Of a DNA stretch of 33,005 nt, positions 1-12,975 are shown one piece after another. Position 1 is the first letter of the stretch. Each line of letters opens with the position of its first letter. A program made the position numbers and the translations under genes. Location of the stretch: contig JAUXOG010000039.1 of NCBI GenBank assembly GCA_030682385.1, forward strand, positions 1-33,005, read 5' to 3'. The notes below the pieces were generated by a model. The model did no database searches and was not told the origin of the DNA. It saw only the letters and a list, made by a program, of their open reading frames with translations. The DNA comes from Bacteroidota bacterium. Its GTDB lineage: Bacteria > Bacteroidota > Ignavibacteria > UBA10030 > BY39.

Positions 1-124
1 GATGGAGTGAATTAAAAAACAAAAACAATATCCAACGGGGTAAATTTAGAAGTATATTTCCACTTCGTCATTCGATATTCGGTGTTCATTATTCATTATT
101 AGAACTACCCTAAAATCTAAAATC

Positions 125-1438
125 TTATTCTTTCATTAAAACAACCCTCAACCACGAGTATGGCACATCCCAATGATTTACAGGGAATTCGTGACCGAGA
201 TTTGCGTGGATAATTAACTGTTTCGTTCTGCTTGGTATCCGATTGTACAAAGCGAAAACTGTATTTGGTGCGGATATCCTGTCTTTAAAATGTGTCGAAA
301 GTAAAACAGGTTTTGTAAATCGCTCTGTAAAATTATTAGCATCAAAGTAACTTAAGGTTCGAAGCGCTGTTGTCTTATTAACTAATCCGTTGATTATCGA
401 CCTTCTTACACGCGAGCAACAACCGCTTTCGATTCCTTCAGAAAAACTGCATAAAGTCGGAATTGTTGCAACGGTGGCTTTAATCCTGTTATCCAACCCT
501 GTTAAAAGCAATGCCAAGCCACCGCCTTGACTTGTTCCTGCAACCCCAATGCGCGCTGTATCCACTTCACTTCGCGTATAAAAAAAATCGATGGCCCGCT
601 TTGCACTTGCAACTGCTTTTCGTAAATAATACTCGCTTGGATTATCAAGGTTCTTTCCTGCCGATGGGTCATCACCCTCAGGATAATTATCGACCTCTAC
701 ATCCAATCCGTGGATCTGTATTGCGACGACTGCGAATCCGAGTCTTGCAAGAGTATATGGAATTTGTATCGGAGTATTTCCATAACTTGGCAGGATTAAA
801 ATTACCGGAAGCGGATCATCGGATTTTGGAAAACAATACCAGCCTTTTATACACATTGCATCAAAACTCCGATACATTAATTTAAAAACTTTGATGCTGT
901 CCTGTTGTTTATCGGTGTGTTCTGTTAATTCAAAGTAAGGATGAATAGTATCTAAAGCAGAAAATGTATTCAGCCAAAATGTTTCAAAATCTATCGGATT
1001 TGTAGCGGAAAAGAGAATCGAATCAGATTGAAAGGCAAACGTAAGTGTATCTGAAAAATATTCGTATTCACCTGTAACTACCCGTGCAAAAATTTCATAA
1101 AAGCCGGGACGCCATTGATAGTTGAGGGATTTTTTTTCGGAAGAGAAATGTATTGTTTTAATACCCTTCTCGAATTTTGAATTTTCCTCATAAACAGTAT
1201 CATAGTGTTTTTGTGTGATACTTTTAAGTCGTATAAAAATTATTCCTCTAACTTTCCGTTGCGATTCGATTCTTACATTAAAAGCGGGGGAGTGATTTTT
1301 ATTGTATAGATGAGTTGGCAGGAACGATTCAATGGATACCGAAATAATCCGTTGTGCGTAAGAACTCGATGCAGATATTGAAAGTAAAATTGCTAAGAGC
1401 GGGATAATTCGGTGTATATTTTTTAGGGAATACCTAAT
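125..1438 (-). CDS. Secreted acetyl-xylan-esterase-like (AXE1/CE7) alpha/beta hydrolase, probable ATT start
   Basis: The C-terminal part matches the AXE1/CE7 esterase family, which removes acetyl groups from xylan-type sugars. In a 437-residue reading, the nucleophile serine is in GTSQGG (about residue 303), the aspartate in HFKDRIS (about 386) and the histidine in NLGHEF (about 416). Before the hydrolase core come the family's DFETFW segment, a roughly 120-residue region of unknown fold, and a signal peptide ending ..SASSSYAQ, so the enzyme is probably exported. The frame is open from a stop at 1475-1477 down to 125, yet I found no in-frame ATG, GTG or TTG above the ATG at 877. That ATG would remove the signal peptide and the start of the family domain. 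ATT at 1436-1438, one base after the ftsE stop, gives a normal signal peptide and suggests translational coupling. The family call is firm; substrate and start are inferred. Confidence 0.72.
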   Translation of the reverse strand: MRYSLKNIHRIIPLLAILLSISASSSYAQRIISVSIESFLPTHLYNKNHSPAFNVRIESQRKVRGIIFIRLKSITQKHYDTVYEENSKFEKGIKTIHFSSEKKSLNYQWRPGFYEIFARVVTGEYEYFSDTLTFAFQSDSILFSATNPIDFETFWLNTFSALDTIHPYFELTEHTDKQQDSIKVFKLMYRSFDAMCIKGWYCFPKSDDPLPVILILPSYGNTPIQIPYTLARLGFAVVAIQIHGLDVEVDNYPEGDDPSAGKNLDNPSEYYLRKAVASAKRAIDFFYTRSEVDTARIGVAGTSQGGGLALLLTGLDNRIKATVATIPTLCSFSEGIESGCCSRVRRSIINGLVNKTTALRTLSYFDANNFTERFTKPVLLSTHFKDRISAPNTVFALYNRIPSRTKQLIIHANLGHEFPVNHWDVPYSWLRVVLMKE

Positions 1439-1439
1439 T

Positions 1440-2102
1440 TTAGATACTTTCGATTTCTTTGATTTTAGTATCTTTTATCTGCAAAATTCTGCTTCCCGAT
1501 CTTCGAACTAAATCGTAATTATGTGTAGCCAACAAAACGGCAGTCCCTCGCGAATTGATTTGCAACAGGACATCAAGAATTTCGTTTGCTAAGGCAGGGT
1601 CTAAATTACCGGTTGGTTCATCTGCTAAAAGAATAAAGGGTTCGTTCACCAAAGCCCGCGCAATTACAACCCGCTGCTGCTCGCCACCTGATAGCTCATT
1701 AGGCATTGCCCCGCGTTTGTGGCTCAAACCGACTTCTGCTAAAACCCGGACAATACGCCTTTGAATTTCGTGCCGCTTAACCCCTGTAACGTGTAATGGA
1801 AAGGCAACATTCTCAAAAACATTCCGGTCTTCTAAAAGCTTAAAATCCTGAAACACAACTCCTAAAGTTCTTCTCAAATAGGGAATCTCCCTTTGTTTAA
1901 TTACTAACGAGTTGTATTTACCGACTGTAACCATACCTGAATTGGGGAGTAAATCCATATAAATTAAACGAAGAAGTGTTGTCTTGCCAATGCCCGACTC
2001 ACCGATTAAAGAAACAAATTCACCCGAGTTGATGTGCATGCTTATATTCGATAAAATCGGTTGAGCGTTAAATGAAAGTGTAACGTTTTTGAGTGTAATC
2101 AT
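1440..2102 (-). CDS. ftsE: Cell-division ABC transporter ATP-binding protein FtsE
   Basis: This is a 220-residue ABC ATPase of normal FtsE length. The Walker A motif GESGIGKT is at residues 34-41, the Q-loop lies in the FtsE-typical stretch GVVFQDFKLLEDRNVFENV (81-99), the signature LSGGEQ is at 137-142, Walker B ILLADEP at 157-163, and the switch histidine in LATHN (194). FtsE normally works with the membrane protein FtsX at the division site and controls peptidoglycan hydrolases. No ftsX lies in this window. The gene begins 3 bases after pdxA stops and is followed by the exported esterase, so all three are probably one transcript. A LolD-type role is possible, but the VFQDFKLL region favours FtsE. 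Confidence 0.88.
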   Translation of the reverse strand: MITLKNVTLSFNAQPILSNISMHINSGEFVSLIGESGIGKTTLLRLIYMDLLPNSGMVTVGKYNSLVIKQREIPYLRRTLGVVFQDFKLLEDRNVFENVAFPLHVTGVKRHEIQRRIVRVLAEVGLSHKRGAMPNELSGGEQQRVVIARALVNEPFILLADEPTGNLDPALANEILDVLLQINSRGTAVLLATHNYDLVRRSGSRILQIKDTKIKEIESI

Positions 2103-2105
2103 ATT

Positions 2106-3107
2106 CTATTTTTTATTTTTGCGGCGGTTATTAATAATAGTTACTGCAGTTTTAATAGCTTCAATTGTGCTGGATGGATTTGCTTTTCCTTTTCCGGCGA
2201 TGTCGAATGCCGTTCCATGATCCGGTGAAGTGCGTACTATCGGCAATCCGGCAGTGAAGTTTACACCTTCCTCGAATCCTAATAATTTTATTGGGATCAA
2301 TCCTTGGTCGTGGTACATTGCAAGCACCGCATCATAGTTTTTGTAAGCATGAACTCCAAAAAAACCATCGGCTGGGAATGGACCTTCGATATTAACACCT
2401 TTTCTTTTAGCTTGCTTCATTATTGGAATTATCATTTCATTTTCTTCTTCTCCGATAACTCCATTTTCACCGGCGTGCGGGTTGAGTCCTAATACAGCGA
2501 TTTTAGGTTTTCTAATTCCAAAATCTTTGATGAGCGAATCGTTCAGTGTTTGTATTTTATCTTTAAGTAATTGTTTCGTGAGCAAGGATGGAATTTCTTT
2601 GATTGGAATATGAATTGTTACCAAAGCCACACGGAAATTTTTATAAAGCATCATCATTGCAAAATTACTACGTTTGCAGAGTGTTGTAATCAATTCGGAT
2701 TGTCCGGGGAAATCGAAACCCTCGAAGTTGATAGATTCTTTTGCTAAAGGTGCTGTTACCATACCATCAACTTCTTTTTCGAGACAAATAAGAGCTGCCG
2801 AAATAACAGATTCAGTAGCAATCCTGCCAGCTTCGTATGAAAGTATTCCCGGTTTTATATTTGGTTTTACAAATTTACGAACTGATAAAATCGGTAAAGC
2901 ATCTGAATTGTTTTTAGGAACAGATTCGATTTCTTTAAGTGTGATTTTCATTTTTAGAAGTTTTGCATAATGCTCGAAAACATAAGTCGAGCCAACCAGA
3001 ACCGGAATGCAAATTCGTTTAACTGCTGGCGATATTGCGGCTTTTAGTGCCACTTCCGGTCCGATGCCGTTATAGTCGCCCATTGTAATTGCTATTATTG
3101 GTTTCAT
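2106..3107 (-). CDS. pdxA: 4-hydroxythreonine-4-phosphate dehydrogenase PdxA
   Basis: The product is a 333-residue NAD-dependent dehydrogenase that oxidises 4-phosphohydroxy-L-threonine in the DXP-dependent route to pyridoxal phosphate. The start MKPIIAITMGDYNGIGPE is the family's N-terminal signature. The three metal-binding histidines fit the segments VTIHIPIKE, LNPHAGENG and YHDQGLIPIK, and the end carries TSPDHGTAFDIAGKGKA. Length is typical. It is the first gene of the pdxA-ftsE-esterase run, and a TTGCTT-17-TAAATT promoter-like sequence lies directly upstream. No other PLP biosynthesis gene is present here. Confidence 0.95.
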   Translation of the reverse strand: MKPIIAITMGDYNGIGPEVALKAAISPAVKRICIPVLVGSTYVFEHYAKLLKMKITLKEIESVPKNNSDALPILSVRKFVKPNIKPGILSYEAGRIATESVISAALICLEKEVDGMVTAPLAKESINFEGFDFPGQSELITTLCKRSNFAMMMLYKNFRVALVTIHIPIKEIPSLLTKQLLKDKIQTLNDSLIKDFGIRKPKIAVLGLNPHAGENGVIGEEENEMIIPIMKQAKRKGVNIEGPFPADGFFGVHAYKNYDAVLAMYHDQGLIPIKLLGFEEGVNFTAGLPIVRTSPDHGTAFDIAGKGKANPSSTIEAIKTAVTIINNRRKNKK

Positions 3108-3133
3108 ATCCTATACATTAGTTGTTGAGTGTT

Positions 3134-3162
3134 AATTTACAAACGACTATGTAGAAAAGCAA
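3134..3162 (-). promoter_or_regulatory. Candidate promoter of pdxA-ftsE-esterase
   Basis: On the minus strand, TTGCTT (3162-3157) and TAAATT (3139-3134) are separated by exactly 17 bases, a sigma-70-like layout. The first base of pdxA is 27 bases further down. The same TTGCTT hexamer appears in other candidate promoters of this window. Confidence 0.4.
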
Positions 3163-3190
3163 GAAAATTAAGCAAATTATAAAAATTTAC

Positions 3191-3219
3191 TTGCTTTTTA
3201 GTGAAATGGAGTATATATT
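3191..3219 (+). promoter_or_regulatory. Candidate promoter of the orphan RNA
   Basis: TTGCTT (3191-3196) and TATATT (3214-3219) have a 17-base spacer. The hexamers and spacing are identical to the candidate cmk promoter at 28372-28400. Transcription would start near 3226, just where a stable hairpin begins. Confidence 0.42.
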
Positions 3220-3225
3220 TTCTAC

Positions 3226-3470
3226 AGTATTTGTAATACTGATAGCCAATACAGATTACAGAATATTCAGGATCGAGGAGGGCTATTGCCGGTTATTAAT
3301 TTATAAAAAGAAAATGCTGATATTTTTTTACATACCGTTACAGGTTGTAAAAAGATGCATTCAAAGAGTTGACTATTGTTATTCGTTCCCATTTCCGAAT
3401 TTATTATCTGGATGCATTTTCTAAAACCTCTTTTTCCCTTTAACAGGGAAGGAGAGGTTTTTTTGTTTTT
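3226..3470 (+). ncRNA. Candidate structured non-coding RNA gene (about 240 nt)
   Basis: This stretch sits in a 677-base gap between divergent genes and has no convincing protein. It has a promoter-like start and ends in a very strong intrinsic terminator. Visible helices are CAGTATT/AATACTG (3225-3241, loop TGT), ATAGCC/GGCTAT (3242-3247 with 3281-3286), TTACA/TGTAA around 3338-3350, ATTCG/CGAAT (3381-3400), and a closing helix around the two ATGCAT words at 3355-3360 and 3412-3417. I see no match to tmRNA, RNase P RNA, SRP RNA or common riboswitch cores. The 5' and 3' ends do not pair with each other as in 6S RNA. No function is assigned. Confidence 0.42.
3425..3470 (+). terminator. Strong intrinsic terminator
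   Basis: A stem of about 16 pairs, including two G-U pairs, runs from AAACCTC to GAGGTTT. It closes on the loop TTAAC and is followed by a T7-G-T7 tract. The direction of the T tract shows it ends a plus-strand transcript, the candidate RNA at 3226. Confidence 0.8.
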
Positions 3471-3521: not shown

Positions 3522-3532
3522 TGAACAACGAA

Positions 3533-3740
3533 CCCGCCTACGTCCCGATTTTATTCGGGACTTCGGCGGGCAGGTGACGAATGACAAACCCGCCTGCGTC
3601 CCGATTTTATTCGGGACTTCGGCGGGCAGGTGACAAATGACAAACCCGCCTGCGTACCGTGTTACGGGACTTCGGCGGGCAGGTGACAAATAACAAACCC
3701 GCCTGCGTCCCGATTTTATTCGGGACTTCGGCGGGCAGGT
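3533..3740. repeat. Tandem array of four hairpin repeat units
   Basis: Four copies begin with CCCGCC at 3533, 3589, 3645 and 3698 (periods 56, 56 and 53). Each has outer arms CCCGCC/GGCGGG and, in copies 1, 2 and 4, inner arms TCCCGA/TCGGGA, ending in CAGGT. Linkers are variants of TGACAAATGACAAA. Copy 3 has a different inner sequence (CCGT-GTT-ACGG) that still pairs. Each unit can fold into a two-part hairpin in DNA or RNA. This is REP-like intergenic repeat DNA, not a CRISPR array. Confidence 0.85.
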
Positions 3741-3784
3741 AACTAATTACCAATTAACCAATAACAATTTATGAGGTAACAACA

Positions 3785-4678
3785 ATGAGACACTTAATTT
3801 ATTTCTTCGCACTTTGCGTTCTAACATTTTCTATAATTGGAAATGTCCCGATTTTATCGGGACAAGTCCCGAATAAGATTTCTTACCAGGGACTTTTAAC
3901 AACTTCCGCTGGCACACCAGTGCCGGATGGGAGTTACGATTTAACTTTTAAAATTTTCGATGTTTCCGCTGGCGGTAGTGCATTATGGACAGAAAATCAA
4001 ACCGGCATTACCATTCAGCGTGGAACATTTAATGTTTTTCTGGGTTCAGTAACAACATTCAACATATCTTCCAATCAAACATTATATGTGGAAGTTACTG
4101 CAACATCAGGACCCGCAATACCTTCACCGACAACATTTTCGCCGCGGTCTGAATTAACAAGTTCGCCTTATGCACTTAGAGCCGATACATCCAATTACGC
4201 AACTGTTGCTGGTACGACCGGTGGTGCGGCAGGTGGTGACCTAATAGGGTCATATCCCAATCCTGCGATTGCTACAGATGCAGTAACATCTCCAAAAATC
4301 CTTGATAAAACAATCCAACGAGACGATGTTCAATCTACATTTAAAGCCCCGTACGCAGATACGGCTGACTATGCGAAGACCGTACCATCCGGCATCGTGA
4401 AGAAGGTCGTGTCCAAGGTCTTCGGCGCCCAAAGTGCCGATTCAGGCGGTGAGATCCGCGACCTCTCCTACGGCGAGACCTTCAGCAGTCCGCCGGTCGT
4501 GCATCTCCAGGCCGTTCTTCGGAGCGCCGGCGGCGGGCTCTTGGCCGGCGCCGTTGCCTACGCGGTGGTGACGGCACGGACGGCGGACATGGATATCACG
4601 TTGTACAACCGCTATGGCGGTTCGCCTCTCCCAACCGCCAGCGTCGATCTTCACGTCCTTCTCATCGAGAAGTTCTGA
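3785..4678 (+). CDS. Secreted tail-fibre-like protein with GC-rich mosaic C-terminus
   Basis: This 297-residue protein starts with a signal peptide (first ~20-26 residues). A beta-rich domain follows (about 27-125) of the type PNKISYQGLL...VPDGSYDLTFKIFD, common in exported proteins of Bacteroidota/Ignavibacteria. A linker then has the tail-fibre-like phrase GDLIGSYPNPAIA (about 155-167). The last ~98 residues look like a compact beta domain (ETFSSPPVVHL...VDLHVLLIEKF), weakly like H-type lectin folds. Codons change abruptly at about 4380: the preceding 300 bases are about 46% G+C and the last 300 about 63%. A GAGGT ribosome site supports the start. No T9SS tail is seen. A surface or adhesive role is a guess. 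Confidence 0.75.
   Translation: MRHLIYFFALCVLTFSIIGNVPILSGQVPNKISYQGLLTTSAGTPVPDGSYDLTFKIFDVSAGGSALWTENQTGITIQRGTFNVFLGSVTTFNISSNQTLYVEVTATSGPAIPSPTTFSPRSELTSSPYALRADTSNYATVAGTTGGAAGGDLIGSYPNPAIATDAVTSPKILDKTIQRDDVQSTFKAPYADTADYAKTVPSGIVKKVVSKVFGAQSADSGGEIRDLSYGETFSSPPVVHLQAVLRSAGGGLLAGAVAYAVVTARTADMDITLYNRYGGSPLPTASVDLHVLLIEKF
3845..3872. repeat. Hairpin-repeat core inside coding sequence
   Basis: GTCCCGA-TTTTA-TCGGGAC (3845-3863) is a perfect 7-bp hairpin that matches the inner core of the upstream array. A third half-site GTCCCGA follows at 3866-3872. It encodes VPILSG at the end of the signal peptide, in frame. This suggests insertion or spread of the repeat into the gene. Confidence 0.6.
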
Positions 4679-4696
4679 TTAACTTTAGAGAAAATG

Positions 4697-4725
4697 GTGC
4701 ATGGGTAACGAAATAAAAATATAAT
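4697..4725 (+). promoter_or_regulatory. Weak candidate promoter of the 4756 gene
   Basis: A perfect TATAAT (4720-4725) has GTGCAT 17 bases upstream (4697-4702). The -35 match is weak. A good AGGAG ribosome site follows before the ATG at 4756. Confidence 0.3.
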
Positions 4726-4755
4726 AATCACAAAAATAAACAAGGAGATTTTATT

Positions 4756-6213
4756 ATGAAACACACAATTTTATTTATTGCAATCTGTTTGATTCTTTTT
4801 AGCTCAATGCTATTGAGTCAAACAATTAATCACCCTTGGTGGGTAGTAGACAGAGGTGGAGGTAAATCATCAGGCGGAGAATTAACTCTACAAACTTCAA
4901 TCGGTCAAAATGCAATTCAAAAAATGACTGGCGATACGTTTGCACTCGAAAGTGGCTACATACCCGGCTTGCGAAATCTGGCGGGCACCTCTACTACACT
5001 TGGAATAAGTATGTCGGCAGGATGGAATTTATTATCAGTCCCGCTGCTTGTAAATGATTACAGAAAATCTGTTTTATTCCCAACCGCCGTTTCGCCAGCT
5101 TATGCATATCAAGACGGTTACAAAGTGAAAGATACACTAAGTAATGGAGCTGGATATTGGCTTAAATTTTCATCATCAACATCAATTCCGATTAGTGGTA
5201 CGGCTATAATGTTAGATACAATCGATGTTAATGCACGCTGGAATATGATAGGTGTAGTTTCGTATCCAGTTTTAATATCAGAGATAACACCCGTTCCGCC
5301 TGTTACTATTCAATCACAATATTTCGGATATACAAGCACAGGATACTACACAGAAGACACATTAAAGCCAGGTTATGCATATTGGTTAAAAGTAAATCAA
5401 TCTGGGAAAATTGTGTTGAAATCCGGCTCAGTGCTGATGGCTTCTTCACAATCCGTTATGGTGAAAACTCAAAATAAACCTGATGATATCAAGTCAATTG
5501 CAGAAGAGAAAGGGCTGCGCAGTTTGACACTAAAAGATGAAGCAGGGCGTGAACAGACGCTTTACTTTACAGCAAAACCTGTAGAGATTGATTTAGAGAA
5601 ATATGAGCTGCCGCCAATTCCGCCGTCAGGAGTTTTTGATGTCCGATTCCAATCGCAGCGTAATGTAGAAGTAGCCGACAAAGAAAAATCGGATAAGCAG
5701 GAATTTCCAATAAAAATCAGCGGTGCAAAGTATCCATTAACAATTAACTGGGATGCTTCAATAGATGAGGAACAAGAATACACACTTGAAGTAAAATCGG
5801 TTAATGAATATAAGATTGTATCGAAAGTATTCATACTTGATACGAAAGAGAAATCATTAACGATTGATGAAGAAGTGTTGAGTGTGAAGTTAATAATGTC
5901 GGCAAAAAGTGTTGTAGAAATTCCTAAAGAATATGTTTTGTATCAAAATTACCCGAACCCATTTAACCCGACTACGAAAATAAAGTATGACTTACCTATT
6001 GCCTCAAAAGTAATTCTGAAGGTTTACAATGTTTTAGGTCAGGAGGTAGCAACACTTGTGGATGAGATGCAAGAAGCGGGATTCAAGTCGGTTGAATTAG
6101 ACGGAACGAACTTATCAAGCGGTGTGTATTTTTACAGACTTATGAGTAATGCCCTTTCGACAAGTACAGGGCATGTTTTTATATCAACAAAAAAAATAAT
6201 TTTATTAAAATAA
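4756..6213 (+). CDS. Secreted protein with T9SS type A C-terminal sorting domain
   Basis: The 485-residue product has a signal peptide ending ..SSMLLSQ (about residue 21). A short GGGKSSGGELTLQTSIGQ module follows (about 30-70), a type frequent in this group's exported proteins. Two copies of a GWNLLSVP...GYWLKF / RWNMIGVV...GYAYWLKV repeat span about 80-225, then an Ig-like region. The last ~95 residues (391-485) are the T9SS sorting tail, recognisable by [14 protein letters not shown] and [15 protein letters not shown]. The protein is therefore expected to cross the outer membrane through T9SS and be released or anchored at the surface. A clean AGGAG site precedes the start. No catalytic motif is visible; its biochemical role is unknown. 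Confidence 0.85.
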   Translation: MKHTILFIAICLILFSSMLLSQTINHPWWVVDRGGGKSSGGELTLQTSIGQNAIQKMTGDTFALESGYIPGLRNLAGTSTTLGISMSAGWNLLSVPLLVNDYRKSVLFPTAVSPAYAYQDGYKVKDTLSNGAGYWLKFSSSTSIPISGTAIMLDTIDVNARWNMIGVVSYPVLISEITPVPPVTIQSQYFGYTSTGYYTEDTLKPGYAYWLKVNQSGKIVLKSGSVLMASSQSVMVKTQNKPDDIKSIAEEKGLRSLTLKDEAGREQTLYFTAKPVEIDLEKYELPPIPPSGVFDVRFQSQRNVEVADKEKSDKQEFPIKISGAKYPLTINWDASIDEEQEYTLEVKSVNEYKIVSKVFILDTKEKSLTIDEEVLSVKLIMSAKSVVEIPKEYVLYQNYPNPFNPTTKIKYDLPIASKVILKVYNVLGQEVATLVDEMQEAGFKSVELDGTNLSSGVYFYRLMSNALSTSTGHVFISTKKIILLK

Positions 6214-6235
6214 AAAAAATACAATGGAGGATATT

Positions 6236-7372
6236 ATGAAAACTTCGAATGTTTTTCTTAAGTTAATTTTTATTTTACATTTAGTTTTGGCATTACCTGT
6301 TCTTATGATAGCTCAAACAACTGTTACTTTCCAGGTTAACATGAAAATCAAGATGCTCAAAGGAACTTTTCTGCCAAGTGCCGGCGATATCGTAACAGTA
6401 CGCGGAAGCTTTAACGATTGGGGATTCGATCCAAGCGGTAATGTCGATACACTATTTGATTTCGATAACGATAGTATTTACACACGGACTGAGGAAATGA
6501 GCGCGGGGTACATGGAATACAAATTCTGGAAGACCCTGCGAAGTGAGCTTGATTGGGAATCTGGAAGCAATCGGGCATACACCGTAATCTCAGGTTCACA
6601 AACATTACATGTTGTGTACTTTGATTATGATTCAGAGTACGATCCGGCAGCGATACCTACCATAACCAATATCTCTCCACAATCTGGCGCTGTTGGTGCT
6701 TTCGTAACAATCACCGGGACAAATTATTCCAGCACACCCGCTGAAAATATTGTATATTTTGGTGCAGTCAAAGCATCTGTAACTTCTGCAACATCGACGG
6801 CGTTGGAGGTAATAGTACCAACAGGTGCCACATACTCGCCAATCACGGTAACAATCAATGGACTTACGGCATACTCGAGCATTCCATTCATAGTAACATT
6901 CGCGAGCAGTTATAGCATCGACTATGGAGCGTTTGCTGGAAAGGTTGATTTTGCCAACGAGAGCATACCGTTCCTTCTTGCCATAGGCGATTTAGATGGT
7001 GATGGCAAACCCGATGTTGCCTCAGCAAGTCAAGATAGTTCGTGCTTTATGTTATTCCGAAACACAAGCACAAGCGGTAGTATTTCGTTTGCGACGAGTA
7101 TAAAGTTGGAAACAGGATTTCGTTCCTATAATGTCTTCATAAACGATATTGATGGTGATGGGAAGCTCGACCTTATCAGTGCGATGTACGAACCGGACAA
7201 TCGAGTAGCAGTTTTCCGAAACACAAGCACACCTGGCAGCTTCTCATTTGAAGGAAGAGTTGATTTTGCAGTAGGAGGTTCACCGCGGCGTGTTGCGATA
7301 AGTGATTTTGATGGCGACGGTTGTCAGACCTTGCAGTATCGTGCATGGGTGATGATTCGATTTCAGTTCTAA
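6236..7372 (+). CDS. Large T9SS modular protein, 5' part (frameshifted): signal peptide, CBM-like, TIG, FG-GAP
   Basis: The start is set at 6236 because GGAGG (6226-6230) sits 5 bases before that ATG; the ATG at 6224 overlaps the ribosome site itself. A signal peptide ends ..LMIAQ (about residue 27). Next come a carbohydrate-binding-like E-set module ([11 protein letters not shown]...GSFNDWG, about 28-135), a TIG/IPT domain ([19 protein letters not shown], about 140-225) and the first FG-GAP repeats ([30 protein letters not shown]). The reading then collapses into unrelated residues from about 7322 and stops at 7372. The coding continues in another frame from 7321, so this is the front of one ~1,720-residue protein split by a one-base loss. 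Confidence 0.8.
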
Positions 7373-10300
7373 TAAACAACGGTTCGGTCGGAATTATCTC
7401 GTTTGAAACAAGTAAGAAATTTAGTGCGGGCAACGATCCGCATTTTATCCTCTCACGTGATATAGATGGCGACACTAAACCCGACCTTGTTATTGGAAAT
7501 TATTCTAACAGTTTAATTTCAATAATTCTCAATACGAGTTCACCCGGAAATATCACATTTTCACCAAAAGTGGAATTCTCAGTTGGTGCAAACCCATACC
7601 TGTTTGGAATCGGCGACTTAGATGGAGACGGCAAACCTGATATCGCTGTTCCAAATATAAGTTCTAACTCAGTTTCTGTACTTCGCAATACCAGTTCCGT
7701 AGGCAACGTCTCCTTTGATACACCTTTAAACCTAAACACTGAAGCTGGTCCGCGCCGCGTTGCGTTTGGAGACATCGACGGTGATGGCAAACCCGATCTT
7801 GCTGTTAATAATGGGGGTGGTTCGCAAGTTTCCGTATTCAAGAATGTAGGTACTCCCGGATATATATCTTTCAACAGTCGTGTCAATTACTTTTCTGGAT
7901 CACAACCGAGGGATGTTGCAATTGCAGATATTGATGGCGATTCACAACCCGATCTGATCACAAATAGCATTAATGACCGAACTGTTTCCGTTTTATTAAA
8001 TACAATCAACACACAAGTTGTAACATTTCAAGTGAACATGAAAATAAAGATGATTGAAAAAACTTTCCTGCCATCGGCCGGGGATGTTGTAACAGTAGCC
8101 GGCAGCTTTAATGGTTGGAATACAGCTACGGATACGCTCACTGATGTTGACGGTGATAGTATCTACACTCGCGAAAGCTCAAATCTTCCCGAAGGTTCTA
8201 TTTCATACAAATTTTATAAAACATTGAGAGGAGGAACAAACTGGGAAAAAGATCCTAATAGAGAGTATACGATATTCATAGGTTCACAGTCGATTCCTGT
8301 AGTTTATTTTGACAGAGATTCAATTGTCTCTGCAAATGTCGGCTCTGCCTACTTGAAAAATATTTCAACGATATATGTTGCTGATGATAATAGAGTTAAT
8401 CCGTCAGCTATTCCGTCGGCTTATATCATTACCGGTAACACAATTACGGTTGAGGCTTGGATTTTTCCGATCAGTCTTCCTCCTATCGGAAGAAATGATG
8501 GAATTGTAATGAGGCCATCTTCTACGGGCTATAGTTTGAGTATAATAAATCCTGGGCCTGATAATGATCCGCGAATCGAAATCAGGATCAGCAATGGACT
8601 TGATTCAGTGATAGTTACCGATTCTGCGCCCGTCATAGCGGGTGAGTGGAAACACGTTGCTGCGACATACGATGGCTCACAAGTTAGATTATATATTAAT
8701 GGAATCCTATCAGCGTCTGCCGCTTTTGCAGCGAATATCGGTGCGGGTGATACTGGCTTTTACATTGGTGGCATAGCAGGTAACGTCTTCCACGGCTTGT
8801 TGGATGAAGTAAGACTCTGGAGTATCGCAAGAACATCGGAACAAATCAGTATTTATAAAGACAGTACACTTGTTGGAAATGAAACGGGACTAAACGGTTA
8901 CTGGCCCCTTGATGTAGATACAACTGTAAATGGAATTTATCCTGTAACAGTTGACCGGACTGCCAACCACAATGATCTTCGAGTGCAAAGCCCCATAGAG
9001 TTCATTCCAATTGTACCGACTGAAACAGTCCTTCTTCCACCTCAACTACATTCCAGCGGAATACTTTCTGGCGTTGTCCAGGTACCTTTCAATTTTTCAC
9101 CGGCTGTCAGCGGATGGCCCGCACCTGAAGTAACTTTACTCTATAGTCCAATCGGAATGGCTTTTAATCCAGTGAATGATTCCGTGAGTTGGACTCCAGC
9201 TAATTATCAATCTGGGTTTAATACATTTGGTATGAGAGCATCTAACTCGGTAGGGTCAGTTGATAGCATTTATTCTGTTTGGGTTGATGCCGATTCACAA
9301 CAGTTCAGAGATCATAACAATAACAAAGCAGTTCTTCGCGTTAGGAATAATGGTTTGCTTGGCTACGACCAAAGTGCGGTTGGCTTCCTATACAACGGGA
9401 AGAATGGGCTTTATCAGGCATCCGTAGTAATTGGGCAGTCACAAAGTCAAGTTTCCGGTTCTCTGTACCAAAGGGAGTTTGCCATAAAGGGGGGTATTCA
9501 AATAGTCAATAGCACTCTCCCAGGGTTTGACCAAGCATTTGAGGCTGAATACAATGACCAACGAACCGGAAATCCTATCGGCGTTAACATTATTCAACGT
9601 TCTCATTCGAAATCAACAAACCCGGATAGGAACTATGTTATTTTAGAATATGAAATCGTAAATACTTCGGGTACAGACATTACTGGAATTTATGTCGGAC
9701 TTGCGGCAGATTTCGATGTTGGCGGAGTCTATAATAACCTCACAGGTTACGACGCTTCGAGAGAACTTACATATACCTACGAATATGGCGGAACGACGAA
9801 TCCATATTATTATGGTATTACGGCTCTTGGTGCGCCAGTGTCCGGGCATTATGTTTGGACCGCTGGAGGCGAACCCGAATTTTCCGATTCTGCATATTAT
9901 CAGCGCTTAAAAACATTTAGAACACCACCTACATCGCAAGGTGATGTTAGGTCTATACTGGGTACTGGTCCATATACCATTACTGCTGGTAGGAGTGTTC
10001 GTGCAGTGTTTGCCATGGTCGTGGGTAGTAATCTTGCAGAACTTCAACTCAACGCGGATGCTGCGCGAGCGATTCAATTTAAGGAAAATCCCACAATTAT
10101 TTCAGTAAGAGATATTCCCAATGATCAGGGAGGAACGGTTTTCGTAAGATGGAATGCCTCCTCATTAGATAATCTAATACTTAATCTTTCTCACTACAGT
10201 ATTTGGCGCGCGCTTCCACAGAGTTCAATTTTAAAAAATGATTTAGTCTCCATGCAGGATATAAATAAGGATTTCGCAGGACCAGCACTGCGTAGTTTCG

Positions 10301-11406
10301 AATTGAATGGCGCATCATATTATTGGGAGTGGATTGCTAATCAATCTGCCCATCGGTTTATATCTTACGCCTATACTGCGAGTACTTTAAACGATTCAAT
10401 GACTAACGTTAACGGCAAGCACTATTTCCTTGTTTCCGCTCATACATCAAATCCAATTATATATTATGACTCTAACCCTGATAGTGGGTACTCCGTCGAT
10501 AATTTAGCGCCATCTACTCCAATAAATTCTAATTTAATAGCATTCATCGAAGGTCCTATTCAAATTCTTTGGAACCGAAATCGGACCGACCCTGATGTTG
10601 GATGTTACAGAGTCTATCGTTCCTTATTTAATCAGTGTCCTATTGCAGACTCGACTCTTCTCTTTACTACCACTGATACAACAGTTGTAGATACAACTAC
10701 CGAAGTAGGGCGAGAATATTTTTACAGAGTAACCGCCGTTGACATACATGATAACGAGAGTTTACCTACCGCTGCTATGGGCGCAACTGCCTTACCCATT
10801 CAACTATCATATTTTCAGGCAGTAGAGCTTGAGTGTGGTCATGCCTTCTTATCATGGCTTACATTATCGGAAATAAATAATTATGGTTTTGAGATACAGC
10901 GGAGGCAAGAAGGGCAATTGTATTTTGAGACATTATCTAATAGCTTTATTCCGGGGCACGGAACAACAACAGAGCCGCATTATTATTCCTACACCGATTC
11001 AAGTATTAAAAAAGGTAGATGGTTTTATCGTCTTAAACAAATTGATATGAATGGTCTTGTTCATTTCAGCAAAGAGGTAGAGGTAAATATTTTAACAGAT
11101 GTTTTGAATGAAGAACCACCAACGGAATATGCTTTGTCGCAAAACTACCCCAACCCCTTCAACCCGGTAACAGTTATCAGTTATCAGTTACCAGTTAATA
11201 GTTGGGTAACGTTTAAAGTGTACAACGTTCTTGGGCAAGTAGTAGCAACACTTGTTGATGAGATGCAGGATGCAGGATACAAATCGGTTGAATTAGACGG
11301 AACGAACTTGTCAAGCGGTGTATATTTTTATAAGATTGATGCAATCGGAATTTCTGCCCAAGGTAAACACCTAAATCAGGTCAAAAAAATGTTGTTGAGA
11401 AAATAA
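7321..11406 (+). CDS. Large T9SS modular protein, 3' part: FG-GAP propeller, CBM-like, LamG, Fn3, sorting tail
   Basis: This is the continuation of the 6236 gene after a frameshift; the TTG at 7321 is probably not a real start, since no ribosome site or signal peptide is present. In order (residues from 7321) are FG-GAP repeats with DIDGDxKPDL calcium loops (to about 230), a second carbohydrate-binding-like module nearly repeating the first (232-330), and a LamG/concanavalin-like domain (about 373-540, [10 protein letters not shown]...[12 protein letters not shown]). After these come an Ig-like domain (573-656), an unassigned ~260-residue region, Fn3-like domains (about 923-1157) and a T9SS sorting tail (1266-1361, [13 protein letters not shown]). 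Counting both parts there are seven FG-GAP loops, enough for one seven-bladed propeller. It probably binds polysaccharide at the cell surface; no enzyme motif was found. Confidence 0.82.
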
Positions 11407-11416
11407 GTTCTTAACG

Positions 11417-11447
11417 GATGGAGTCCACACTAGATGTGGACTCCATC
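11417..11447. terminator. Perfect 13-bp hairpin between convergent genes
   Basis: GATGGAGTCCACA and TGTGGACTCCATC pair perfectly around the loop CTAGA. The hairpin lies between the stop of the large T9SS gene and the stop of pepA. It lacks a T tract on either side, so it may act as an RNA 3' end stabiliser or a bidirectional block rather than a classic intrinsic terminator. Confidence 0.55.
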
Positions 11448-11457
11448 ATTACATGAA

Positions 11458-12975
11458 TTACTTCCAATTTCTGAGAAGTTCAGTAAGTAGCCTTACCCCA
11501 ACCCCCGAACCACCTTTTGGAATGTAGGGACTTCCTTCGTCCATAATTGCGGTGCCGGCAATATCGAGGTGCGCCCATTTGTATTCTTTTTTGTTTTTAT
11601 TGGAAATAAATTTCTTCAAAAACATTGCAGCGGTAATCGTGCCGGCGCCGCGACTGCCGATATTTTTTACATCAGCAATATCGCTTTTTATTTGCTTCTC
11701 ATATTCGTCGAACATAGGCAACTGCCAAACACGTTCATAAGTTTTCTCACCCGCCGATTTGATCTTCGAAATCAACTCCTCATCATTTCCTAAAACTGCT
11801 GTAGCGTGATGCCCGAGTGCAACAACTACAGCTCCTGTTAGTGTTGCGAGGTCAATCACAGCAGCAGGATTATAACTCCTTGCGTAAGCGAGTGCATCGG
11901 CTAATATCAATCTTCCTTCAGCGTCGGTGTTATCAACTTCAGATGTTTTGCCGCCATAGTGCGTAATGATGTCGCCCGGTTTCATCGCAGAACCACTCGG
12001 CATATTCTCGGTTGCAGGTATTAAACCGATCAACCGAACTGGTAATTTCAGGCGGGCAGTCGCTTCGATCGTTCCAATGACAGCGGCAGCGCCGCTCATA
12101 TCCATTTTCATCTCCGACATTTTAGCTGAGGGTTTTATAGAAATACCTCCGGAATCGAATGTGATTCCTTTGCCTACCAACACAATAGGGTTGTATTCCT
12201 TTTTATCAGAATTGTATTCCAAAATAATAAAGCGAGGAGGACGTGTGCTGCCGGAACTAACACCCATCAATCCTCCAAATCCTTCTTGTTTAATTTTTTT
12301 CTCATTCCAAATCGAACATTTGAATCCATATTTTTCTGATGATTCTTTTGCGGCTTGTGCGAGCGTTTCGGGATAAATTTCAGAAGCGGGAGCGTTTGCA
12401 AGATTGCGCGCTAGTATCACTCCATCGCAAATAATTCTTGCAATGCCGACACCTTTGGAAATGGATTTATATTTTGCTTCATCTTCTGTGCATACGGTTA
12501 ATTCGTTTAGTTTAACTTCGTCTTCTTTTTTTGACGTAATGTATTTATCGAATTTGTATTGCGAAAGAATTGCACCTTCACCAATTGACTGAGCAGTTTC
12601 TTCAATGGTTGGATTAAAACCAACGGGAAGTTTTGGAAATATAATCGATAAATGTTTCGCTTTCATCGATTTTGCTTTATTCGAAGCAATCGCGGATGCT
12701 TTGCGGAATGTTTCAAGTGTTGTTTTACCTTGTTCTCCAACACCGACTAATATCAATCGTGGTGAATTAATTTTTTTTTCGGTGTAAGTAAAGACAGTTG
12801 TTTCTGGCTTACCCTTGAAACTCTCGAATTTTATGATATGGTCGATTTCATTTGGAAAATATTTCTTCAAACCTGATATTTGTTCTTCAAAGATCTTTTT
12901 ATCCTGATAAATAAGTATAGCAACGGCATCAGCTTTGATGGTTTTTAAGTTTGACTTTAATGTTGAGGTTTTCAT
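11458..12975 (-). CDS. pepA: Leucyl aminopeptidase (M17 family)
   Basis: The product is a 505-residue cytosolic aminopeptidase that removes N-terminal residues from peptides, normally as a hexamer with two metals per subunit. The C-terminal catalytic domain has all expected motifs: VGKGITFDSGGISIKPS with metal-binding Lys and Asp, KMDMSGAAAV with the second Asp, and the family signature NTDAEGRLILADAL. The first ~170 residues form the variable N-terminal domain. Length is typical. It is the last gene of the minus-strand run and ends 51 bases from the convergent T9SS gene. No strong promoter was seen in the AT-rich 147-base gap upstream. Confidence 0.95.
   Translation of the reverse strand: MKTSTLKSNLKTIKADAVAILIYQDKKIFEEQISGLKKYFPNEIDHIIKFESFKGKPETTVFTYTEKKINSPRLILVGVGEQGKTTLETFRKASAIASNKAKSMKAKHLSIIFPKLPVGFNPTIEETAQSIGEGAILSQYKFDKYITSKKEDEVKLNELTVCTEDEAKYKSISKGVGIARIICDGVILARNLANAPASEIYPETLAQAAKESSEKYGFKCSIWNEKKIKQEGFGGLMGVSSGSTRPPRFIILEYNSDKKEYNPIVLVGKGITFDSGGISIKPSAKMSEMKMDMSGAAAVIGTIEATARLKLPVRLIGLIPATENMPSGSAMKPGDIITHYGGKTSEVDNTDAEGRLILADALAYARSYNPAAVIDLATLTGAVVVALGHHATAVLGNDEELISKIKSAGEKTYERVWQLPMFDEYEKQIKSDIADVKNIGSRGAGTITAAMFLKKFISNKNKKEYKWAHLDIAGTAIMDEGSPYIPKGGSGVGVRLLTELLRNWK

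Follow-up and report, generated by a model that had tools for sequence, protein, structure and literature searches.

A MAT-like bacterial fibre gene with a GC-rich, lectin-like tip that was probably acquired by recent transfer between distant bacteria

How does a gene that is surrounded by AT-rich DNA come to end in GC-rich DNA? The question is raised by a fibre gene in the window, which is the whole stretch of 33,005 nucleotides analysed here. The first-pass annotation reported an abrupt rise in GC content at about position 4380, placed it at a domain boundary, and attributed it to replacement of the C-terminal, probably receptor- or ligand-binding, domain by DNA from a GC-rich source. The explanation that we favour, and consider highly probable, is that the gene encodes a chimeric fibre akin to mosaic adhesive trimers (MATs), with a tip that was swapped through recent transfer between distant bacteria. 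Features of the locus are listed in Table 1.

Table 1. Features of the fibre locus (positions refer to the window)
Feature	Positions	Strand	Evidence
Array of ~four 56-bp REP-like palindromes, one degenerate, just upstream of the fibre gene	3531..3747	+	TRF
Chimeric fibre gene (297 aa) coding for a signal peptide, a beta domain of MAT-like type at the N-terminus, a short stalk and a foreign tip	3785..4678	+	ORF/translation
Hydrophobic signal-peptide region (~residues 1-26)	3785..3862	+	Sequence
Native MAT-like N-terminal domain	3863..4196	+	BLASTN alignment with the syntenic counterpart in same-genus genome G001, ~84% identical in DNA
Native stalk module, GGDLIGSYPNPAI...KILDKTIQRDDVQSTFKAPYADTADYAK	4227..4378	+	BLASTN matches to L041 and L043; motif survey
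Interval that contains the junction of native stalk and imported tip	4379..4388	+	Native homology stops at 4378, donor-like homology starts at 4389
Imported GC-rich tip domain (~residues 202-297) and stop codon; six predicted beta strands	4389..4678	+	77% DNA identity to L009 5005-5291
Next gene: native, secreted, with type IX sorting tail; 3' marker of the locus	4756..6213	+	Por_Secre_tail, E 5.1e-9; synteny with G001

The reported jump is real. Residues 1-199 (3785-4381) have 42.7% GC and 29.6% GC3, and the 98 codons that follow (4382-4675, residues 200-297) have 63.6% GC and 78.6% GC3 (GC1/2/3 = 0.65/0.47/0.79), with native AT-rich DNA on both sides of the tail. GC content reaches 0.65 in 297-bp intervals over the tail; the highest value elsewhere in the window is 0.52, in the palindromic-repeat array at 3.5 kb. 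The GC3 step within the gene is 0.50 compared to a maximum of 0.15 among the 22 other genes in the window that could be tested, and it never exceeds 0.20 in related fibre genes from other genomes. Codon usage in the tail is described better by a table from GC-rich Deltaproteobacteria than by the window's own table (-124.5 vs -150.0 log units), while the N-terminal part clearly follows native usage (-226.1 with the window table vs -556.5 with the deltaproteobacterial table). Homology to native stalks extends to 4374-4378. Donor-like homology takes over at 4389 and continues to 4678, where the stop codon is complete; the import therefore starts at a native module boundary and stops with its own stop codon. 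These borders are sharper than the annotation could resolve.

A same-genus genome (G001) provides the native counterpart of this locus. Window positions 116-3335 align with 3938-7156 of its contig C65 (L040) at 91% identity and positions 4816-6135 align with 11402-12721 at 79% (BLASTN). Between these syntenic flanks, G001 has two fibre genes (660 and 606 aa) with N-termini that have ~84% DNA identity to the window gene (window 3762-4196 aligns with L040 9371-9796) and C-terminal regions that match Peptidase_S74, the endosialidase-type fibre chaperone, in place of the tail found here. The stalk module that ends in KILDKTIQRDDVQSTFKAPYADTADYAK also occurs in other fibres of the same and related genomes, where different C-termini or modules follow it. 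The G001 pair lies in tandem at L040 7260-11214, compared to one gene in the window genome, with a different short repeat between its members. Downstream of the fibre locus, the window contains two large genes with FG-GAP repeats (6224-11406), the first of which also has a TIG domain. The second combines its repeats with a Laminin_G_3 domain and has a type IX sorting tail.

The tail has a narrow distribution. Its 98 residues occur once in their own genome and were not found in 59 relatives, including the same-genus genome, or in 394 other genomes sampled from the phylum. A scan of 84,980 species with these residues returned one relative, which is the C-terminus of a 763-aa collagen-repeat open reading frame (Pfam Collagen, E 1.1e-29) in the deltaproteobacterial metagenome-assembled genome Zod_Metabat.1445 (JAFGHH010000396.1, L009). 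GC content is 65-86% throughout that locus and roughly 70-74% in the genome. The window tail and the C-terminal 97 residues of the L009 protein are 73% identical; at the DNA level, 4389-4678 and L009 5005-5291 are 77% identical in an alignment that ends at the stop codon, and the two sequences have nothing alignable beyond this interval. A partial match to L045, from another genome in the phylum of L009 (E 0.006 over 38 residues), was too weak to be counted as a relative. In L009 3000-5291, a cysteine-rich stretch precedes the collagen repeats, and the first 450 residues of the protein have no Pfam match. The two tails differ by dN 0.15 and dS 0.80 (Nei-Gojobori), which indicates purifying selection on the domain since the copies parted. 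Tail GC3 is lower in the window (79%) than in L009 (96%), so the L009 lineage is best viewed as a relative of the source and not necessarily as the donor; transfer would have run from a GC-rich bacterium into the window lineage. Replacement of the C-terminal domain by GC-rich-source DNA, as proposed in the first-pass annotation, is supported by this relative, by absence of the tail from the sampled relatives and phylum genomes, and by the Peptidase_S74-type C-termini at the syntenic locus. Searches of phages, plasmids and IMG/VR returned no match to the tail, and its carriage by phages or plasmids is unsupported. Identity as a phage tail fibre, encoded by a phage or prophage and with phage relatives, was not supported by these searches, and the genes on either side of the locus are chromosomal and syntenic.

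Two other readings of the composition step were weighed against transfer. Tail uniqueness in the genome and its wholly foreign GC would also be expected from an assembly chimera, in which 300 bp from a GC-rich member of the community were misjoined into the contig, and the genome resembles a draft metagenome bin (140 contigs). Such an error would, however, require two joins within 300 bp, and would have to produce an in-frame fusion at a native module boundary with an exact end at the stop codon. The L009 flanks share no sequence with the contig that might drive misjoining, while the flanks in the window are AT-rich, native and syntenic with G001 on both sides. Direct repeats, which could be a mark of transposition, were not found beside the insert, and their absence also speaks against misjoining. 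We regard an assembly chimera as improbable. Purifying selection on the tail marks it as a functional domain, which could fit an old, vertically inherited fibre type in which a GC-rich codon bias was kept for function. Yet the bias is synonymous, in GC3, and meets no protein-level need; the domain is missing from the relatives and phylum sample listed above; no related fibre gene has a GC3 step above 0.20; and relatives that share the GC step by descent are excluded within the sampled set. Vertical inheritance is therefore a very remote prospect, and recent transfer remains the preferred reading.

The fibre into which the tip was fused belongs to a mosaic family. Residues 25-94 match NCBIfam NF053851 (Bdello_MAT_N) with E 6.5e-10 and 39 bits, which is below the curated cut-off of 60 bits for family membership; none of the 60 related genomes has a match above that cut-off. 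On this sequence evidence the fibre is best described as a distant MAT-like homologue and not as a named MAT. Four of six sister fibres tested have a similar Bdello_MAT_N match, and a related domain occurs in 20 of the 60 related genomes, with one to ten copies in each, and in none of 14 controls. Single-linkage BLASTP clustering of 20 family proteins gave one N-terminal cluster and ten C-terminal clusters, the latter number being approximate because a few of the short proteins could be truncated. The family thus combines a common N-terminus with exchangeable C-termini, and the sister genes of the window fibre have Peptidase_S74. MATs published for Bdellovibrio bacteriovorus have a signal peptide and a conserved beta-rich N-terminal domain of ~130 aa, and their tips are either S74 or swapped non-S74 domains. 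The swapped tips include TNF-like folds and C-type-lectin folds, and glycan binding is reported for one of them (PMC10769870).

Structure prediction gives an indication of what the imported domain resembles. AlphaFold2 with a two-sequence alignment models the tip as a six-strand beta domain (pLDDT 86.7, pTM 0.78). The full-length fibre model, from a two-row alignment, is poor (pLDDT 41.6) and was left out of fold conclusions. The closest folds to the tip in Foldseek and VIA-align searches comprise discoidin H-type lectin domains (Z 7.8, 7.7 and 7.2), the C-termini of the phi297 and LKA1 tailspikes, AP22 gp53, R-pyocin fibre tips and Helix agglutinins. The sugar-binding lectin SLL-2 is also among the nearest folds, and viral predicted structures labelled as tail fibre or H-type lectin match as well. 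All Z values are below 8, and most of the highest-ranked matches belong to H-type lectins or fibre tips. In sequence searches for an H-type lectin family, the tail had no Pfam match at E values up to 1; Pfam, PHROGs and NCBIfam gave chance matches only for tail families, PDB sequence matches were at E 0.5 or worse, and the tail of the L009 relative had only an unrelated Pfam match below cut-off. The model thus consistently resembles H-type lectins and fibre tips, a resemblance that falls short of proving family membership. Fold resemblance and the architecture of the fibre together suggest that the tip may have a receptor- or ligand-binding role, as the annotation had supposed.

A narrower function is conceivable. 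With the same origin by transfer, the foreign tip might be a trimerisation cap only, standing in for the S74 chaperone and closing off the fibre. The tip occupies the place of S74 chaperone regions in sister fibres, and its L009 relative caps a collagen repeat, likewise a trimeric stalk. Among phage tip domains with this fold, many serve for capping and for binding at once. Against this, sugar-binding lectins (discoidin, Helix agglutinin and SLL-2) are among the nearest folds, although fold alone is no proof of binding, and glycan binding has been reported for a variable MAT tip (PMC10769870). We consider a role restricted to capping to be unlikely.

In the preferred explanation of a tip swapped by transfer, the fibre would be exported by way of its signal peptide, with its conserved N-terminal beta domain positioned on the cell surface, a short outward-projecting stalk module and an exchangeable C-terminal domain as the tip. 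A lectin-like domain from a GC-rich bacterium would have replaced the previous tip by horizontal transfer, fused in frame at the native module boundary and with its own stop codon retained. Collagen and S74-type fibres both have trimeric stalks, so that one tip could serve both. If the fibre trimerises, it would present three copies of the lectin-like tip, which could bind surface or extracellular glycans, and exchange of the tip would then change the binding target of the fibre.

Palindromic repeats near the gene may bear on how the exchange occurred. Their REP-like core, TCCCGATTTTATTCGGGA, has five exact sites in the 3.38-Mb genome, four of which lie within 3544-3863. A shorter copy of the palindrome, CCCGATTTTATCGGGAC, lies at 3847-3863 within signal-peptide codons and is missing from the corresponding position in the sister species (alignment with G001). 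The fifth core site (L053, G000:C24, 1900-1917) lies near an IS200-like (Y1_Tnp) transposase gene, an arrangement that is consistent with a REP/RAYT pair. For the transfer mechanism, the upstream palindromes are suggestive only.

Tip swapping in MATs was already described for Bdellovibrio (Caulton et al. 2024, PMC10769870). What is new here is a homologous fibre family in the window lineage, a lectin-like tip, and a transfer that is still visible in DNA; our literature search, which was incomplete, found no paper that covers both MAT fibres and Ignavibacteria-type organisms. Tip swaps in chimeric bacterial fibres have so far been inferred from diverged paralogues. The swap reported here is a rare case that is recent enough for foreign codon usage and both borders to remain visible, and it links bacteria that are taxonomically far apart and two stalk types that are unrelated. 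The MAT anchor of Bdellovibrio has homologues, with varied C-termini, that are common in another lineage, which suggests that modular adhesion fibres of this kind are not a tool of predators only. It is a conceivable generalisation, although one that we would not yet call probable, that non-predatory bacteria with type IX secretion own MAT-like repertoires of surface fibres in which new lectin tips are acquired directly from unrelated bacteria, fused at a fixed module boundary and circulated between phyla and stalk types (S74 beta-helix and collagen), with local REP elements perhaps marking an exchange-prone site.

In its predicted six-strand fold, the tip resembles the C-terminal domain of discoidin I/II, Helix agglutinins, phi297 gp61, LKA1 gp49, AP22 gp53 and R-pyocin fibres, and it shares with H-type lectins and phage or pyocin tips a length of ~95 residues and a position at the fibre end (Z 5.5-7.8, rmsd 3-5 A). 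The tip has only 7-16% sequence identity to these domains over the alignments and no Pfam family match. It is closest to the end of the L009 collagen-like protein, in sequence and in position at the stalk end, whereas that protein has a collagen-type stalk, an unrelated N-terminus and a high-GC genome. In common with Bdellovibrio MATs, the layout begins with a signal peptide and continues through a beta-rich N-terminal domain, related in sequence, to a C-terminus that is S74 in some members and a swapped, unrelated beta or lectin-like domain in others. In contrast to those MATs, the N-terminal score is below the cut-off of the named family, the window fibre is much shorter (297 aa vs 626 to ~1,000), and the host belongs to a different bacterial lineage that has type IX secretion genes and no evidence of predation. 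The tip is H-type-lectin-like, a kind that is not among the tips in the main text of the MAT paper (PMC10769870), and, unlike in Bdellovibrio MATs, the foreign DNA composition of the window fibre is still visible.
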